A DNA stretch of 64,000 nt from Glandiceps talaboti. Its lineage: Eukaryota; Hemichordata; Enteropneusta; Spengelidae. Shown piece by piece: positions 29 to 59,340 of the stretch (the first letter of the stretch is position 1; the number at the start of each line of letters is the position of its first letter). The notes beneath the pieces are model-generated. The model did no database searches. It saw only the letters and a program-made list of their open reading frames with translations, and was not told the origin of the DNA. A program made the translations under genes and the position numbers. The stretch spans positions 28,765,176-28,829,175 of the forward strand of contig NC_135550.1 in the NCBI RefSeq assembly GCF_964340395.1, in the 5' to 3' direction.

Positions 29-3000
29 ACTGAAAATGGTGTACCAGCAGGTGTTTCTGGAGAACGAAGACACAGTTCAATATTCCCTGAGTAAGCGCTT
101 TGTTCTTTTTATCGATCGTACTCTCTCACAAATATCAATTTCTGAGATGTTGTGAACAAATTAAGATCTAAATATCCACATCATTGCACCATGTTTCATG
201 ATGATGTAGTGTAAGTCAGATTTTATACCACTAGTAGTTACATCTAGGATGTTTGTGTCACACTAAACATTTTTTTTTGAGCAAGGTATAAGCAAGTGTG
301 AAATTTGTTGAGAGATATATTATTTAGTGTCAAATTTCATTTAACACAACACAGCACAGCACATAATACAACACAACACAATACAATATATCTTTTTTAT
401 TGTCCCAAAATGAGCAATTCATCGTGTGACAGTAGAGAATAAAAGTAGACATGAAAATCATTTAAAACAGGGACACATAAATTAAAATGCATACAATAAC
501 TACAATTCATGACTACTAAATACTTTATTGCTTGTTTCTGATACCAGAGGCCAACAAGAAATTCACAGCTTAAATAGTTAACTGAAGGTTTTGTCTTTCT
601 ACATAGCTTATTTCTGATACCAGAGGCCGGCAAGAAATTCACTGCTTAAATAGCTAACTGAATGTTTTGTCTTTCCACATAGCTTGTTTCTGATACCAGA
701 GGCCGACAAGGAAAGAAAGGAGGAGGAGAAAGAGGAAGAAATCCCAGAACCCAAAATCTCACAAGCAAGGCAGGCATTTTTAGTGAGTATAAACCAGATT
801 GAATATTTCTGGACTTGTATATTTCCTGTATATCTACATATGAAATAATCCAGATAAATTAAAGAACATTACGTGGCATATTATTTCCACTTTTAGCTGT
901 AAAAATTCAGCGAAATGTACCATCATACACTGTTTATGATAACATTAGATCATATGATGACACGAGAATTTAACATTTTTTGTATAGAATTGAAAAATTA
1001 TTTTGTCCCAACCCTATGATGTTCCAGTGTTTTATCAAATGTATTTGTTAAACTAATTATGTATTTGTCCTCTCTACAGAGTATGTTTGCCCGTAACTAT
1101 TACAGTCTCAAGTATGTGGCATTGGTACTTGCCTTTATCATCAACTTCATCCTGCTCTTCTTCAAGGTGACCAATTTGAAAGTTCTTAGACCTGTATGTA
1201 ATTCTAACATATTTTTTCGATGTCCAAATCCTCATTGTATCCCTTGGTGTGTTAGGGTTGGTCTACGTAGCCTTACCTTGCAACCTTACCTGTAGATATG
1301 TATGCATGAATCTGTCCTCAAAACACAATTGTGGTGTACATTATTACTATTTGCTGCATTATTATAAATTGAAACAAGCTATGACACCAGCGAATTGTGA
1401 CTTATGTGTGCATTGATTGAACTACAAATGTTTTGAATGAATTGATGTGAATGATTTAATTTGATTTTAAATGGTGTACATTGCATGTTGTAAAAGATGT
1501 AATAAGAAAAAGAAGAGTTGTGTATAAGTATTAATCATTGTTTAAAAATAGTCATTTTTCTCAGCTGTGATTAAAATTAGACTTTAAGGCTGTGAACATT
1601 TTCTTCAAAGTAGTTGTCTCACAAAGAGAAACATTGGAATATCAGCTAATACAAATTAACCATTCTCGCACACCAGAATTGTTATTTCTTCCACAACACT
1701 GCGAAATAATGAGCGTTTTGAATGATGTCGTAAAAAAGGCTGTGGTTTACGACGATGAAATTAACGCAATCACTGCACTGTACTTTGCAATTTCACAAAA
1801 GTGTTTTAATTCTGAGTGAATCTAATAAGTTACTTTCTGAATTAAATTATTAAAACTAAGAACATTAATTAAAGATGTTAGTATACACATAATTTGTATG
1901 ATATTGCAAACCCACAGGCCACTGCCCATGCTGCAGCATTCTATGGTGGTGATGGCGGTGACGACATTGAGTTGAATTTGAGTGAAATTAATGACAACAT
2001 CACTGATGTGGAGGAAGACGATGATTTAGAAGAATGGATAACCTTAGAAGACTCGTCAATATTTTTAGATCCGTTGCTGAAATTATTTGGAATATTACAC
2101 ACAGGAACAGCCCTCTCTATGTTGATTGCGTATTGTGCTCTCAAGGTATACACATCATATATGTACTTAAATGTCAAAAACATCAAGTTCAAGTGTGCTT
2201 TAATTAAAGGAACTTTGTCTATCTTCTCTGCACTCACCTTTATATATAGAATTTGTTGTAAATATTTATGATTCTGCCATTGAAATAGCAAATCCAAAAT
2301 ATATTGTCTATGTCTTCAGTTGTTGACATATCTTTTGTCATAGATATCTCTCCCATGTGAATTTTGTCACAGATACCCTATCCTCAAGTTCAAGTGAACT
2401 TTAACAGAACTTTATTCATCCTGCACTCACATTTATGTAATATATTCTTTGTTTAAAATTTTATGATTTTGTCATTAAAATAGGAAATCTAAAGTACATA
2501 TTTTTCTGATAATTCTGTTAACGTATTAGTTTAAAATAGATATCTCCCATTGTATTCTATTTTACCTCAGGTACCACTAGCCATCTTTAAGAGGGAAAAA
2601 GAAGTATCCAGGAAATTAGAATTTGATGGTACATGGATAACTGAACCACCAGAAGGAGGTGACATTAAAGGAATGTGGGATAGTTTGGTCATTAGTACAA
2701 GGTAAGAACTGTATAAAGTCTGATGTCTTACAATTTAATTTCTTATGAGTGTACACCTATAGATGTGTATGTCTTTAACAAGCATAATTATTTATCTGTT
2801 TGTATTTAGTATTTTTTTCCCACATGAAATTCCTTTTCTGTATTTAATACTTTTTTGTCTTCTTTCAGGTCATTTCCAGTTAATTACTGGGACAAGTTGG
2901 TGAAGAGAAAGGTATGTAATAATTTCATAATTATGATATTAAATATTAATCCAAAATGAGAAGCCAGGTCAATGCTTAGATTTCCATCATTATATATAAG

Positions 3001-6000
3001 TATTACCATCCAAATCAGGTTAGTTGGCAAAGGATACAGTTTTATAAAATACCTGTGGCATTGCACATGGCAGTGTGTGTTGGTTATACGTAGTTCACAG
3101 TTGTCAAATTTTAATATTACATGGCGATGGAGAAAATGATACACGTTGTACAAATTGAGTGGATGAGACACGGTATGGATAAATTGATGGATTGATTTAT
3201 GATTCTCCAATAATGCTGAGATTGCTGTGTACTGTAACTTTGACTGACTAATTCTGAGATTGCTGTGTACTGTAACTTTGACTGACTAATTCTGAGATTG
3301 CTGTGTACTGTAACTTTGATTGACTAGGTGAGGAAGAAGTACAGTGAGAGTCTGGATGATGACAAACTGTGTACACTACTTGGCATGGAGAAAGAAGATA
3401 ACTTGTTTGCAGAATCTGAAGATGAAGAACAAGACAGTATCCTGTCAGCAATGTGAGTACGACTGTGCTAACATTGTTGGTGGTCAGGTTTCTCACCTGC
3501 TCATGATTTGAATATCGCAGTTTGATTATGTAGTAATAATTGATGTACTACAGACAGTAAAAGTGTTGTTTTTTCAGATTATTAAACAACAGAGGTTTTG
3601 TCACACACTGTAATTTCCTTCAACATTGTAACTGAACCCATGGTTAGTGGCTCTTGCTGGATAGTTATTGATATAAAGGAAATTTAATTCTTGGCTACGG
3701 CGGTCGGTACATACCTGTAAAAAAATTATGTTGTATTGATAATGCAATTTCACGGTAAATAGTGTCAACTTTGTAGTTTTAGGTATTTCAAAATACAGAA
3801 TTTGTTGTACCTGTAAAATTGAGAGAATAACAAATGTCTATACCTGAATAAGATTTAATAAATGAAATAATTTATCAATTTCTTCCTTAGTGTGAAATCT
3901 GTGGACTGGAAGTACCAGCTGTGGAAATGTGGTGTTATCTGTACAGATAATGTAAGTTTACTTTGTTATAATTCTTGTCATGGAATTGAAACACTAAAAT
4001 TCAACTGAAACTGAAACACTTTATTTAAAAAAAAACAAAAAACAATTAGCACATACCAAAATACTGTATTTATATTTGTATATATTACAATCAATGGACA
4101 GATTGTTGTAATTGCATTCAGGGTGTTATAATAATAATGATTAATGTTTATTTCATTTCATCTCTATACAGTCCTTCCTGTACATTGCCTTCTACTTGAC
4201 CTTCTCAATCCTGGGTCACATCAATCCATTCTTCTTTGCTGCCCATCTATTGGACGTTGCCATGGGTTTCAAGACATTGAGGACAGTCTTACAATCTGTC
4301 ACTCACAATGGCAAACAGGCAAGTAGAGAAGGCCCCTTAGGTTACTGTTATAATTCAACCAAATCATAAACTAAGTCAGAATATGTTAATAAAAGAAGAT
4401 CAAGAGAGATGTATTTCATGAAGTCAAACACTGTGGCACAATAGCTATATTTAAAACATTTGTTAGACTTAGTGCTGTTCAATGGTTCTTCCTTCCATCC
4501 ATAAGAAAAATACAAATTGGCAAACAAAACAGTTAGTTGTTTCTTTTAGACAAGTAGAACTTCAACAACTTTGGTATTAGGAATGTGAAAAGACCAATAT
4601 GTAACTGTAGTACTCACAATTTACCAATGATTTAATACTCATGATGAATATTTAGGTGCAAACATTCTGTCAGATTTATATAACACACAACAACCAAACA
4701 GTCTTATATTGTGTGATTGTGAATACAACAAAGTAACTGGAGGAGCTGAACAAAATGTGATAGAGTTTGTCAATTTGATCATAATAATAACATTGTTGTA
4801 TTTTATCTTTCCAACAGTTGATCTTGACTGTGATGATGACATCCATTATAATCTGGCTGTACACTGTCATAGCATTCAACTTCTTCAGGAAGTTCTATCT
4901 GAAGGGTGAAGAGAATGAGGTGGAATTCAAATGTCATAACATGTTTACTGTAAGTTATCAACAAGTAGATTTACTGCTGTCACCCCCTCACCTAATATGT
5001 TCACTGTAAGTCATCAACAAGTAGATTTACTGCTGTCACCCCCTCACCTAGGATTGCTTGCTTTGGGTATCAAATAAGATATCTCACATACACAGAAGAA
5101 TGGATACAAGAACCTGTAATAGCCTGCGGAACTGGCTGAAACACATGAAGGATTCATAAATGATAACTTGGCAGTATCAACAATAGTTATAAAGAGTAAC
5201 TTTGACTAACATTTATAGTTTTTCTGTAAACCAGATTGATTGATTCAAGGTTATACCATACTTTGGAATCCAATGTGAATATTTTGGACTTCTATATTTG
5301 AATGATGTTTAGAAGAGCTTTATGTGGTATGGAGAGATGGTACACAAGAGAGCATTGTGTTGTCACTATTAACTTTAAGTCATACCCATTACTTGAATGA
5401 GATACTAACTTGTAAAAAATACAATGTTACAGCATTTTCAGGACGAAATACAATCATGTTGACACAAACAAGTACATGAATTTTTGTTGCTTGTTTTAAT
5501 AGCTGACCAGTAGATCTTAAAACTAATTTCTTGCACTTAAGTCATACTTTGTATGCACAATGTAGCTGTTGCATGGTATACTGTCTCTGACTGTCTCAAT
5601 TCTACCACCATTGCATGCTATAGTCAGTGTCTTTTTTATCTTTGCACATAGTAGCATGATAAACTGTCCACTTGGTGAACCTTTCCGATGCAAGCATTTC
5701 CTCAAAAACCAAAATCCTACAACTGTGACACCATTGGTATTGACAAGCTGAGACTAATACAAACTACTGCTATTTTGGCATTAATGTCATGTCACAATGA
5801 CGTTGTGGTTTGTGCGTCTTTTCTTGTCGAAACTGACTTTGCCACTGTAGTAAATATATCTAACAATTGTGTGTTGAATTTTTTGAACCAAAATGAACAA
5901 GATAGTCTGTTCTCTTTGAATCTTTCTACATTATGATAAAAAATTGTTTACCTACGAGTTGATTACTGTAACATTAAACTATGACATCAAAGGTTCTGTT

Positions 6001-9000
6001 CTATATTTTTCTCTTACTTTGGCTGAAGCTCATTGTCATTTTTCATCTCATGTTATTTTCTTTGATGTATGCCTTCATTTGGTTGTTGTTGTTTCTTATT
6101 GTTTTCAGTGTTTTGTGTTCCATTTGCACACTGGTTTACGAGCTGGTGGGGGTATAGGTATGTATAGCATACTGCTAGGTGTAGGTGTTCTCTTACTAAC
6201 ACAGTAGTCTTTTTACATTACAGTGTTTTGTCTATCACTTACACAGTGGCTTAAGAGCCGGAGGAGGAATTGGTAAGATCAGAATCACACAAATTTCTTT
6301 TTAAAAATAGTATTTTTCTGTCAAACAAGCATATCTGTTTCCAGTCATTCTTTGTGGGGTATTTTTTATAAATGTCCAAAGAGGTGCATAATTACCTTGT
6401 GTGCTATAAATTTACAAGGTTTGCTTTCACCAGCATATGATAACTTAAAAGTTAATTTATGTTATCATCTGTGAATCCAGAGTTCGGGACGTAGTCATGA
6501 TGATGTTTAGTAAGTTGTGCACCCAGATACTATGTTGTAATGTTTTCACTACTTTACAAGCATTCACAATTTTACAAAATGTTATGGTTTCTCATGAAGA
6601 TCTTTGCTGCATTTCAGATTTCCTTAGGTATTCCCCTCCTTGTATGGCCATCAGAAACCACCTTCAAAACGCCGTGGCGTCACAGCCAAATATGTTTCCC
6701 ATCAAATGAATGTGACAAAAACTAAGCATGTATGTCTGTTGTTAACAATGAAGCACTCTAATGATTTTGTACAAATTGATGTTTTCAGCTGATGAGATAG
6801 AACCACCAGATGGAGATCCTTATGAATTCTATCGTATCATCTTTGATATTACATTCTTCTTCTTTGTCATTGTCATTTTGTTGGCCATCATTCAGGGTGA
6901 GTTGACACTTTGTATTTTAGTTATTTATTTCATCCCTTTTGGATCAGGGCTCACTATGTTGGGAGCAGCATTCATAATACTAAAATGTTTTGGCAAATAC
7001 ATATTATTGGTGCAAAATGCTAGGTATGGACAAATATACAGTAAAGTATTGCATTAATGTAAAGAATGTATAGTGAGTTGTTGTCTTATATGAAATATGA
7101 CTGGGATGTTTTCATCTTTATAAATATTCAAGTTATGGGATAAAATAAGGTGATGTTGACACAACTGTTCATTATATAATTTTGATGGAAAGGCTGTTAT
7201 ATTCAAAATACTGAATTGTTGAAAATTAACACAACACTACAAGATAGGAAGTACACATAGAGATGATATAGTAGCCAATATTTTTTTAAAATCAGCTTGT
7301 CCTGAAATGTAAAGAGACAAATATTATCTCCTGAAATTTGGTCGAAAGGTATAAATAACAACTTATATTACATGGTAAAATACAGTGGTTATTGGTCATA
7401 ATGAGATGAGTTCACTGGATTAGTTTAGAAATTGTTATGGAGGCATTTCCTGTAAATATTAACTGAGTGTGTAGTATGAACTAAATGTACTATTATTATC
7501 ATGGCCATCCTTTAGGTTTGATTATTGATGCCTTTGGTGAATTGAGAGATCAAATAGAGCAAGTAAAAGAAGACATGGAGGTAAGTGTCAGAACATTTTG
7601 TGTTTTCAATTTTATAGATCAGCACCTAACATTTGCAGTCTCTGCACCGCCCAGAAACATACTACTTAGTAAAGTATGATTATAACAGAGTAATAGGGTA
7701 AATATGATACATGATATGCTACAAGTCCAAGTTCAAGGTGTATAGCAAATGTAACACGGCTTTCAGATAGATGATCCATCTAATCAACACAAGCAAGTTC
7801 TGTTTCACAATTTATAAGATTTCAGTCATTTTGAAGAAAATTTAGCAATAGAAGTCTAGAATATTTGAGGGTATTCAAATTCAGACTTGTCATGATTGAC
7901 AAAAAAAAACCTGTTAAAAACAGTTCTTCTTACATTAAAATCCACCTCAGATTGTGTCTCCTTTCTTTCTGTGTAATTTAAAAAAAAATGTTTATCTAAC
8001 TGTTAGAAATTGATTGTTTCCTCGTAGAGTAAATGCTTTATCTGTGGCATTGGCAAGGAGTACTTTGATCGAGAACCACATGGATTTGAGAAACATGTCA
8101 TGAAGGAACATGACTTTGCAAACTACATGTAAGTACATTAAAAACAACAATACAAACAGACTACTTTATTTGTGTTGTCATAATGAAGACAACCATAGCT
8201 GCTGAATGGTGGGAGTATATTCTTGGGTATGAGAAAGACTTTCATGTATGTCCTGTACTGTATAGATATTTCTGGAATACTTAAGTTATCGAGGAGAAGT
8301 GCTTGGTACATACTGTGACAAATACAGCTATTACAACTTTTGAACATATCATATATCCATGTAAAAGTTTTCTGTTTCATTAAATTTACAAATTTAAGAG
8401 TATTTTAACTATTTGTAATGGCAATCACCAGATCTGACAGGCATATTAAAAATTTATTTTAAAAATTATTTAAAATCTAAATGATACAATGAAGGGAAAT
8501 ACTGCTGCAGTGTATTTCATACAGGTCAGTAGGTCCACTAAACATGGACACACCATATACCCAGCTTCAGGTTTGTATGTGTTGTACAAATAACCGAGTC
8601 ACTATCTTTGTTTTCTGTTTGTAGGTTCTTCCTGATGCATTTGATTAACAAACCAGAAACAGAATACACAGGTCAGGTGAGTGTCAGTGCTTCATTGCCC
8701 TTTGACCTTAGATTGATGGATTTGTTGACCTACTCTTTTCACCTTCTGTGCTTTCAGCATGACCTAAAGTCATTGTGATGACAAGTCTTTTCACAGTAAT
8801 GTATGATCTGAAGAGTATACTTATGAAAAGTTGAGTCAATGTAGAACAGTGGACCAAAATCTCAGAAATTGTTTTTTTCTAAGGTTTGGGAATCTAGGTA
8901 ACAGAGATGGTAAAACTTGTATACTTTCTAATACTTTGAACCATAATTTTAATGGGGAACCATTGTAAAATACTCGGGGGATCTTGAGATTTTACTGAAA

Positions 9001-9636
9001 ATACCCAACTATATATACATGGTAGTCAACTATGATGTAACAAACACCAGCAATCCAGTACTTTTTATTACGAGTGTGAAGCCTCTAGGCTCAATCTGAA
9101 TATGATGATGGCTTCACACGTTCATCATCAGATTCGAAGTCTTCCGAATGGGCACGAACGCGAGTTCGTCAAATCACACAAATCCTTCATTGGCGGTTTG
9201 AAATCATGCGATTGTGATTACTTCTCACTTGAATTGCATGGATGTGCATGCTCCTTTTTTATTTTTGCCAGAGTATCCGATTTGCACCATGAATTACTGT
9301 TATCATAGACCATAATATGGAGCATGCAAACCCATGCAATTCAAGTGAAAAGTAATCACAATCGCATGATTTCAACCTGCCAATGACAGTTTTATGTGAT
9401 TTGACGTGTGAAGCCATCATCATATTCAGATTGAGCTAGAGGTGAACTTTTGAAACTGAATATGAATATGAATATGATGGTGGCTTCACACTCGTCTTTT
9501 TATTTGCATACAATCCTTATCTGACCTTTGACCTCATTTGTTCCAGGAGTCATATGTATGGGAACTGTACCAGGAAAGATGCTGGGACTTCTTCCCTGTC
9601 GGTAACTGTTTCAGAAAACAATATGAAGAGGAGTAA
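29..9636 (+). CDS. RyR: Ryanodine receptor, C-terminal channel part (5' end outside window)
   Basis: Intracellular Ca2+ release channel of the ER/SR membrane. Sixteen exons in phase give 520 residues: 29-90, 700-782, 1080-1166, 1918-2145, 2571-2701, 2869-2911, 3328-3452, 3891-3951, 4172-4318, 4818-4949, one of 6109-6157 or 6224-6272, 6789-6896, 7516-7580, 8028-8128, 8625-8676 and 9547-9636 (TAA). Recognisable blocks in order are [18 protein letters not shown] (first membrane helix here), [55 protein letters not shown], the pore helix and filter [24 protein letters not shown] (inner helix), the C-terminal zinc finger CFICGIG with [11 protein letters not shown], and the end [18 protein letters not shown]. 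These match the RyR family closely; IP3 receptors differ throughout. A complete RyR is about 5000 residues, so roughly the last tenth is here. An acidic insert (EDDDLEEW) lies between the first two helices, a region that is divergent across the family. The intron after 4318 begins with GC. Confidence 0.97.
528..710 (+). repeat. 76-bp tandem repeat, 3 copies, containing an RyR 3' splice site
   Basis: The block tttctgataccagaggcc occurs at 535, 611 and 687, a spacing of 76 bp each time. The third copy supplies the real acceptor and first bases of the RyR exon at 700-782. The two upstream copies carry the same acceptor-like sequence, but in the exon frame they soon meet a stop codon. Confidence 0.9.
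1661..1757 (+). repeat. Dispersed repeat of unknown type, copy 1
   Basis: About 95 bp from cattctcgca to gtttacgac, in a RyR intron. It is related to 55577-55692 and, in reverse, to 34222-34326. Shared blocks are a CCAGARTTGTTATTTCTTCC-like stretch and a GTGGTTTACGAC-like end. This copy lacks the GGGACGGCTC segment of the others. The family is not recognised. Confidence 0.65.
3214..3327 (+). repeat. 38-bp tandem repeat, 3 copies, ending at an RyR 3' splice site
   Basis: The string ctgagattgctgtgtactg starts at 3216, 3254 and 3292. The last copy runs directly into the acceptor tgactag of the RyR exon at 3328; the earlier copies end tgactaat and so lack a usable AG there. Confidence 0.9.
4938..5052 (+). 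repeat. 56-bp tandem duplication including an RyR 5' splice site
   Basis: Two near-identical copies, with actgtaagt starting at 4947 and 5003. The first is the real end of the RyR exon (…ACT|gtaagt); the second repeats the last exon bases and the donor inside the intron. Confidence 0.9.
6109..6157 (+). CDS. RyR: RyR pore exon, alternative copy A
   Basis: Flanked by ttttcag and gtatgt. The 49 nt read [16 protein letters not shown] plus one base, in phase with the exon ending at 4949 and the exon starting at 6789. It encodes the pore helix and start of the selectivity filter. A second copy of the same exon follows 66 bp downstream. Including both copies would add 49 nt and shift the frame, so the two should be used one at a time. 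Confidence 0.9.
6224..6272 (+). CDS. RyR: RyR pore exon, alternative copy B
   Basis: Flanked by acattacag and gtaaga. The 49 nt read [16 protein letters not shown] plus one base, with the same phases as copy A. About 13 of 49 bases differ from copy A, yet only two residues change (F to Y and T to S). Nearly all differences are synonymous, which argues that both copies are old and under selection rather than one being dead. Confidence 0.9.
9070..9495. mobile_element. Fold-back DNA element with 9-bp target duplication (Mutator-like?)
   Basis: A long inverted repeat inside the last RyR intron. The outer ends are acgagtgtgaagcc and its complement. The arms continue inward through a ctcaatctgaatatgatgat block to gcatgctcc (9247-9255) and ggagcatgc (9317-9325), around a loop of about 60 bp. 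It is flanked on both sides by ctttttatt (9061-9069 and 9496-9504), a perfect 9-bp direct repeat. Long terminal inverted repeats with a 9-bp target duplication are typical of Mutator-like elements. No transposase is encoded, so it is a non-autonomous copy. Confidence 0.75.
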
Positions 9637-9745
9637 GAGAGCCTGATGGTCCAAATTTTATATATAAGAAAATATACAAAAAAATAATGAAGTGAAAACA
9701 AGGAAACACTAACTGTAACATTTGAAAGGAAAAGGAAATGTTACA

Positions 9746-9875
9746 AGACAAAATGCAGTATCAAAAACTAAAATAAAATTATACTGCTAATATTTAAAGT
9801 AACTCTTAACAGACAAAATGCAGTATGAAAGAATAAAATATACTGCTAATATTTTAAATAAACTCTGTAAACTCA
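9746..9875 (+). repeat. Two-copy tandem repeat of about 65 bp
   Basis: agacaaaatgcagtat starts at 9746 and 9811, each followed by an ataaaattatactgctaat-like block with small indels. Confidence 0.75.
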
Positions 9876-9925
9876 TCTTGTCAGAAGTAAAAGATGAAAT
9901 CAAGGAACTAATTCAAACAATCAGA

Positions 9926-9981
9926 CACCATATTTGATTTAATTTGGTGAAATCACCATATTTGATTTACTTTGGTGAAAT
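9926..9981 (+). repeat. 28-bp tandem duplication
   Basis: caccatatttgattta occurs at 9926 and 9954, each followed by a ttggtgaaatc block. Confidence 0.8.
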
Positions 9982-11245
9982 CCAAGTCATATCTTGAAAT
10001 CAAGATAACAAACAGAGTTTTTGAAACAAATGGTTGTGCAACAAAAAAGAAATCTCTTAGAGGAACGTTTAAAAAAGAAGCATCAAATGGTTTTGGTGAA
10101 GCAACCAAGTGGAAGGCTATATTCACAATCATGAAACTAAAGAAAACGTCACTTTGAATTCCTCGACATCTTGAATTTTTTTTTCAAGCTCTCTAACAAT
10201 CCTAAAAGGATCAAACTTTATCTATGCAAAAACAAAACAACAAAAAAATTAAAACCAAAAAAACAAACTGTGCCTAATACAGGCGAGTAATTTTATGAGA
10301 TTTTGATCATGGTATGAGATAAGACAGAGTATGGTGATTTGATGCATGATAATAACAGCTTTTTGTATAAGTAGTTCTTCACAGACCATACACTCTAACG
10401 TTGCCAAAACCTGTATAGTACTCACATCTCATATCAACCATCAATTTTAGATAACACAAGATAAACTTTTTGATTTGAACATAACCATTACATTATTTAT
10501 TTGATTGTCATGTATAGAATCTACAAATACTGTTAAAAACTAATTTTGAAGTCAATATTTTTCATTATTCTTCAACTCTTGCTATTTTTTCTTTTTTTCC
10601 ATTTCCAATGAAATTTGTATCTAAAAAAGGGGCTCTGATTACATTGAAAGTAGTTTCAATAGCTCCACTAGATACCCTTTTGATTAAAATGAGTTTGAAT
10701 GTGCAATGATTTTAAGCTTTTCTGCTGCTGTGGTACAGTAACTTAAACTATTTAAATGTAATGGAAATTAGGGGTAACCACAAGTGTTGCCAATCATGTG
10801 CATGTGATTACATTTATTATTTTTATGAAATCATGGGAAGCCATTGGATTGTGGCTTAAATTATACTGTGCCAGTTTTCTTCCATTGGCTGTACTTGCCA
10901 GCATAATTGATTTTGTATTGAATATTGATTTGGATTGGTGTTCCAGTGTGTAAAATTAAATTATTATTAGGGTTTCCTAGGTAGAAATGATCATGAAGCT
11001 AGCTGGTCTTAGCTGATAGGATGATGTTTTCAAATCTGTCCAGATTCCAAACAGCTTGAATTTCACGTTTTGCAAATCTTCCGAGCCATTTGCAATTTAC
11101 TTTTTTTGTACAGCTTCCAACTCTTTAATTACATTAATATGCTAATGAATGTCATAACTCTGGCAGTTGATGTAATTTCAGAAATGACAATAAATCACAA
11201 TTTATTTGCTAAAAGTGAGACTATTGTGTCTTCTGTGTCATATCC

Positions 11246-41305: not shown

Positions 41306-59340
<18,035 letters not shown>

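Follow-up and report, generated by a model that had tools for sequence, protein, structure and literature searches.

Tandem pore-helix exons, probably mutually exclusive, in the ryanodine receptor gene of an acorn worm

The closest precedent for a channel gene that exchanges part of its pore by splicing is NALCN, whose exons 15a/15b are described, in the accessible part of the source, as mutually exclusive pore exons found in echinoderms and hemichordates among others (PMC3557258). In NALCN exons 15a/15b and 31a/31b, as in the ryanodine receptor (RyR) pair presented here, a tandemly duplicated exon covers the re-entrant pore loop of a cation channel, but NALCN swaps a key residue of the selectivity filter (E/K) and, as proposed, thereby the type of ion, whereas the RyR pair keeps the filter letters, differs at two residues of the pore helix and belongs to an intracellular release channel. 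Invertebrate Cav3 channels have alternative exons 12a/12b that, in the available text of their description, change ion selectivity (PMC4436565); they too lie beside a channel pore, but encode an extracellular turret of differing lengths and not the pore helix. Within the RyR family, mutually exclusive exons are known from the second SPRY domain of insects, where the accessible portion of one study counts them in 21 of 26 species (PMC6026295), and in Bactrocera the exclusive exons (ASI a/b) are, according to the part of the paper at hand, regulated by stage and body part (PMC3989282). The remark in a first-pass annotation of the present locus, that known alternative RyR exons, for example those of insects, lie elsewhere, agrees with this SPRY position, as far as the source is available. 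The insect exons are mutually exclusive members of the same gene family, but they encode a cytosolic domain, and 20 of 31 residues differ in Bactrocera, as against 2 of 16 here.

For the mechanism of exclusion, the nearest comparison is with OGDH and alpha-tropomyosin; in the latter, exons are reportedly kept apart because the branch point crowds the donor. The study of OGDH exons 4a/4b quotes, citing alpha-tropomyosin, a steric threshold of ~50 nt between donor and branch point (PMC7969005, in the portion available). A branch site less than ~50 nt from the upstream donor is what those two genes, on the evidence of that portion, may share with the RyR pair, where a candidate motif stands at such a distance; the branch points of OGDH are distant from the 3′ splice site (118–131 nt in birds and mammals, same portion) within a longer intron, whereas here the whole intron is 66 bp. 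Among the matches listed in the open-licence literature, judged by titles and abstract starts and with subscription papers and preprints outside the scope, we recognised no description of an RyR pore exon pair. The way to tune Ca2+ release that the first-pass annotation suggested would be new for RyR as far as searched, but the principle is known from NALCN, hemichordates included; within the same search, mutually exclusive pore exons are new for RyR rather than new in kind.

The window, that is, the whole stretch of 64,000 nucleotides analysed here, comes from Glandiceps talaboti, an acorn worm and hence a member of the Hemichordata. Translation of the window exons yields a 247-residue C terminus, of which residues 1–246 align with RyR structures. 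Its PDB matches comprise 51 distinct sequences, the best 39 of which are RyRs (E 2.5e-130 to 1.4e-121) and the remaining 12 IP3 receptors (E 1.9e-44 or worse), an order that upholds the initial assignment to a ryanodine receptor, the principal channel for calcium release inside cells. The annotated protein P0122, ‘ryanodine receptor 2-like [Glandiceps talaboti]’ (5212 aa), carries RyR Pfam domains and covers a 251-residue query region completely at 100% identity; among the matches listed in the protein search, the RyR of Ptychodera flava reaches 96% and those of seven echinoderms 81–85%. In the window together with the preceding 80 kb, P0122 aligns from residue 120 to its end across 129 introns with no mismatch at the joins (70 plus 59 introns from two spliced alignments, with one 18-nt exon, acceptor AAAAAG, doubtful), and the gene extends at least 79 kb upstream of the window. 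The features of its 3′ part are collected in Table 1.

Table 1. Exons of the RyR gene and the spacer of the pore exon pair, in window positions.
Feature	Position	Strand	Remarks
RyR exons, C-terminal part, first six of nine	29-90, 683-782, 1080-1193, 1918-2145, 2571-2701, 2869-2911	+	Spliced alignment
RyR exons, C-terminal part, last three of nine	3328-3452, 3891-3951, 4172-4318	+	Spliced alignment
RyR exon upstream of A/B pair	4818..4949	+	S5 helix and luminal loop, ...KCHNMFT; end phase 0; spliced alignment to P0122
Pore exon A	6109..6157	+	49 nt = 16 codons + 1 nt; copy present in annotated protein P0122
Spacer between exons A and B	6158..6223	+	66 bp; TACTAAC branch-site-like motif inside
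Alternative pore exon B	6224..6272	+	49 nt = 16 codons + 1 nt; not in annotated protein
Common downstream exon	6789..6896	+	Rest of filter A-D-E, luminal entrance, S6 start; completes GGGI-A-D
RyR exon, S6 end	7516..7580	+	Spliced alignment to P0122
RyR exon, C-terminal domain	8028..8128	+	SKCFICGIG...; spliced alignment to P0122
RyR exon	8625..8676	+	Spliced alignment to P0122
Last RyR exon with stop codon	9547..9636	+	Spliced alignment to P0122

No second RyR gene was found among the best-scored candidates of an RR_TM4-6 profile search and a pore-query search of the genome, and a second gene was rejected as the source of the variation described below. Outside this locus the profile passed the family cut-off at two places, one on C5 (E 1.6e-4) and one on C11 (E 4.1e-4), each with internal stop codons. 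The pore query returned this locus, four places of ~50% identity and one of 33% with E 1.6; the four, one of which reads GLRNGGGLGDVL, look like IP3 receptors. IP3-receptor-like pore/S6 exons lie at G000:C1:4041816 and at C12:12031881, 12156656 and 12206143, so that three share a contig and span less than 175 kb. RyR is likely to be single copy in this genome, a statement short of proof because the genome searches score the best candidates only.

Exons A and B both start in phase 0, end with one extra base and are bordered by AG and GT. They differ at 13 of 49 nucleotides, spread over codon positions 1/2/3 as 1/2/10, and from A to B two of the 16 residues change, F4Y and T8S. The likeness stops at the splice sites, the flanks more than 6 nt outside being only 25–40% identical. 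The locus has the tandem homologous exons with equal phases and their own splice sites by which a mutually exclusive pair is recognised. Recomputation reproduced every anatomical detail of the first-pass annotation, from coordinates, lengths (49/49) and splice dinucleotides to the 66-bp spacer, the 13 differences and the two residue changes, and the spliced alignment places the neighbouring exon ends where it had them (4949, in phase 0, and 6789).

A Nei–Gojobori count of A against B finds changes at 11 of 11.3 synonymous sites, which are saturated, and at 2 of 36.7 non-synonymous sites (pN 0.055 versus pS 0.97; Fisher P = 3.5e-9), 11 of the 13 changes being synonymous. When 13 random substitutions were introduced into exon A, two or fewer amino-acid changes arose in a fraction of 1.5e-5 of 200,000 simulations, and in 8e-5 of 50,000 with a transition bias of 4. 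With synonymous sites saturated and non-synonymous sites nearly frozen, A and B must both have served as coding sequence for a long time; judged from the nucleotide letters, the duplication is old and each copy has long been under selection for its encoded peptide. That both copies look selected, as had been remarked on first inspection, is borne out by the Fisher test and the simulation alike.

The explanation that we favour, and consider probable, is an old tandem duplication of a pore exon, with each mRNA carrying A or B, the choice enforced by steric exclusion and mRNA decay, and two receptor forms as the outcome. Splice matrices trained on 66 introns of this gene (the 70 mapped, minus two with GC donors and two beside the pair) place the donors of exons A and B at the 30th and 14th percentiles of the training introns and their acceptors at the 83rd and 36th. 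All of these sites fall within the range of the training introns, and scores that high are rare inside introns, being reached by no more than 1.8% of the GTs (n = 1,897) and 1.0% of the AGs (n = 1,442); the donor of exon B is on the weak side, which counts against use of that exon. The spacer is shorter than all 129 mapped introns (106 to 2995 bp, median 416), a comparison confined to the introns of one gene; introns of ~66 bp are routinely spliced in some animals. Its TACTAAC motif offers the adenosine at 6199 as a candidate branch point, with 42 nt to donor A and 24 nt to acceptor B. The shorter CTAAC occurs in the 3′ window of 9 of the 129 introns (7%), versus 1% of mid-intron windows, and the perfect TACTAAC in the 3′ window of just 1 of 129, so that it is atypical for this RyR gene.

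We take steric hindrance, with mRNA decay as a second safeguard, to be the most likely basis of the presumed mutual exclusion, because the spacer is shorter than the mapped introns and holds a TACTAAC 42 nt from the donor, inside the ~50-nt threshold. Joining A to B would be hard, the likely branch site standing so close to the donor that both ends could not be bound, and each mRNA would contain exon A or exon B. The gene holds another tandem exon pair, whose spacer is likewise unusually short (73 bp), and this speaks for the same explanation. RNA pairing was rejected as a selector between A and B: the predicted fold of positions 6060-6300 does not stand out (z -1.17; 20 of 200 shuffled sequences did equally well or better), and no Rfam family reaches its gathering score within 4000-10000.

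By our own count through structure-alignment coordinates, the altered residues correspond to Phe 4885 and Val 4889 of rabbit RyR1. A published RyR1 model, in the part of the paper available, has the pore helix at M4879–A4893 and the filter GGGIGD from 4894 (PMC2668181), which puts both changes in the pore helix; the two forms have their filter letters in common. Both exons encode GLRAGGG, with the RyR pore-loop core G-x-R-x-GGG, and the same GGGI; A-D-E comes from the common next exon, and a filter residue is not swapped as it is in NALCN. The first-pass annotation was right to assign the pore helix and the start of the filter to the pair, but ‘swapping the permeation pore itself’ overstated a change of two pore-helix residues. 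The two receptor forms would carry Phe/Tyr and Thr/Ser in the pore helix, behind a filter that stays the same, and would probably be used in different tissues or stages. Because two pore-helix residues change and not the filter letters, any effect of the swap on gating or conductance is probably modest, a fine tuning of one or the other.

These residues were compared with a pore sample of 360 proteins (the best 120 of 298, of 2359 and of 267), of which 336 matched the pore motif and 24 did not. Among the 336, which are 90%-cluster representatives with many insect isoforms and give non-independent counts, position 4 is occupied by Phe in 300 cases and by Tyr, as in exon B, in 36, and position 8 by Thr in 34 and by Ser, as in exon B, in 12; the pair Tyr+Ser of exon B occurs in none of them. 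Within the favoured explanation, the exons could be exclusive but functionally equivalent, each suited to a different splicing environment, with Phe/Tyr and Thr/Ser neutral. We regard this sub-case as possible but lean against it: the changes are conservative, each residue occurs singly in other RyRs and the filter letters are identical in A and B, but saturated synonymous divergence with two replacements indicates strong constraint on the peptide.

The reading frame is kept with exon A alone or exon B alone. Inclusion of both leads to a stop at the 18th codon after A and skipping of both to a stop at the 4th codon, so the prediction that using both would break the frame holds, and extends to double skipping; in either frameshifted transcript, exon junctions still remain downstream of the early stop. 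A premature stop with exon junctions downstream should trigger mRNA decay, and transcripts with both exons or neither would be removed by the nonsense-mediated pathway. The early stop of the A+B transcript is equally what a poison exon would produce, an added copy that shifts the frame, lowers RyR output through mRNA decay and is itself never translated. Such a role would fit the protein record, in which the single annotated isoform found contains exon A only: exon B is in none of the annotated RyR proteins examined, exon A is in P0122, and the P0122 cluster is one sequence, with no second isoform in that protein collection. We nonetheless consider a poison exon unlikely, since codon meaning is not expected to persist in one, yet the changes between A and B are nearly all synonymous, and the 66-bp spacer makes A–B joining improbable in the first place. 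It is very improbable that exon B is a decaying relic or was duplicated by the assembly, as its absence from the annotated protein might suggest, with 13 of 49 nucleotides different, which excludes an assembly duplicate, and ~8 residue changes expected of an unselected copy under the random-substitution simulation, which creates a stop in 34% of cases. A recent duplication is ruled out together with the assembly duplicate by these differences and the saturated synonymous sites, and a pseudo-exon was rejected on the simulation result, the splice-site scores and the divergence of the flanks at the exon borders.

The filter that both forms share reads GGGIAD, with an Ala, at 6789-6790, in place of the Gly equivalent to RyR1 G4898. 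This Ala is present in all nine named ambulacrarian RyRs (2 hemichordates and 7 echinoderms) and in 13 of the 336 pore sequences overall, including two bivalves (Tegillarca and Mya) and two unnamed sequences. No further copy of the downstream exon that would restore the filter Gly was seen in the locus. In RyR1, replacement of G4898 by Arg, a central-core-disease change, abolished Ca2+ permeation, as stated in the accessible text (PMC2668181). A review of insect channels, in the portion available, calls GXRXGGGXGD a characteristic motif (PMC8301844); going by the sequences at hand, the motif is not fully valid in RyRs with the filter Ala, because its last Gly is Ala in these species.

If the favoured explanation of mutually exclusive exons is taken further, ambulacrarian RyRs may possess an ancient regulated pore-helix switch, with the isoforms in different cells and Phe/Tyr plus Thr/Ser behind GGGIAD giving two Ca2+-release conductances, or graded mixed tetramers, from one gene. 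We put this forward tentatively and would sooner bet against it; if true, it would be the first known case of an intracellular Ca2+ release channel whose pore is switched by splicing. As RyR is tetrameric, the two pore forms could combine within a channel, with several conductances as the result. Vertebrates diversified Ca2+ release via three RyR genes, and an acorn worm with apparently one RyR gene, if it varies the pore helix by splicing, would have arrived at a different solution to the same need. The A/B pair also offers natural, evolution-tested substitutions beside the filter of a channel whose filter mutations cause disease.

The second tandem exon pair of the RyR gene lies outside the window at L003:1507-1581 and L003:1655-1762 (G000:C2:28746682-28746756 and 28746830-28746937). 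It consists of a 75-nt exon, KLTAQDVNEFVRNSLHIGKRKKPPT, which the annotated protein lacks, and a 108-nt exon, KQTEKDVSEFLRNALNVGEEKVEENDETSESSNAQP, which it includes; both are phase 0-0 exons, and the distance between them is below every mapped intron. Since 75 and 108 are divisible by three, a transcript with both exons would stay in frame. A GC donor directly follows the annotated exon of this pair, and a GC-AG intron begins at 4319 (GCAAGT donor), after exon 4172-4318. The end of the exon upstream of A and B, including its donor GTAAGT, is duplicated in a 56-bp direct repeat (95% identity) at 4937-5048. Splicing from the second donor, after 5005, would lengthen the message by 56 nt and put it out of frame. 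A minisatellite at L002:8530-9882, upstream of the window and with a unit near WNNYRYGHRPQSGTKV, lies directly behind an RyR exon and forms one open frame of 525 aa with that preceding exon; it is spliced out in the annotated protein. Elsewhere in the window, an open frame at 53878-54366 encodes CPITPGTRSTCQYCRFQKCLAAGM, which we take to resemble part of a nuclear receptor DNA-binding domain.
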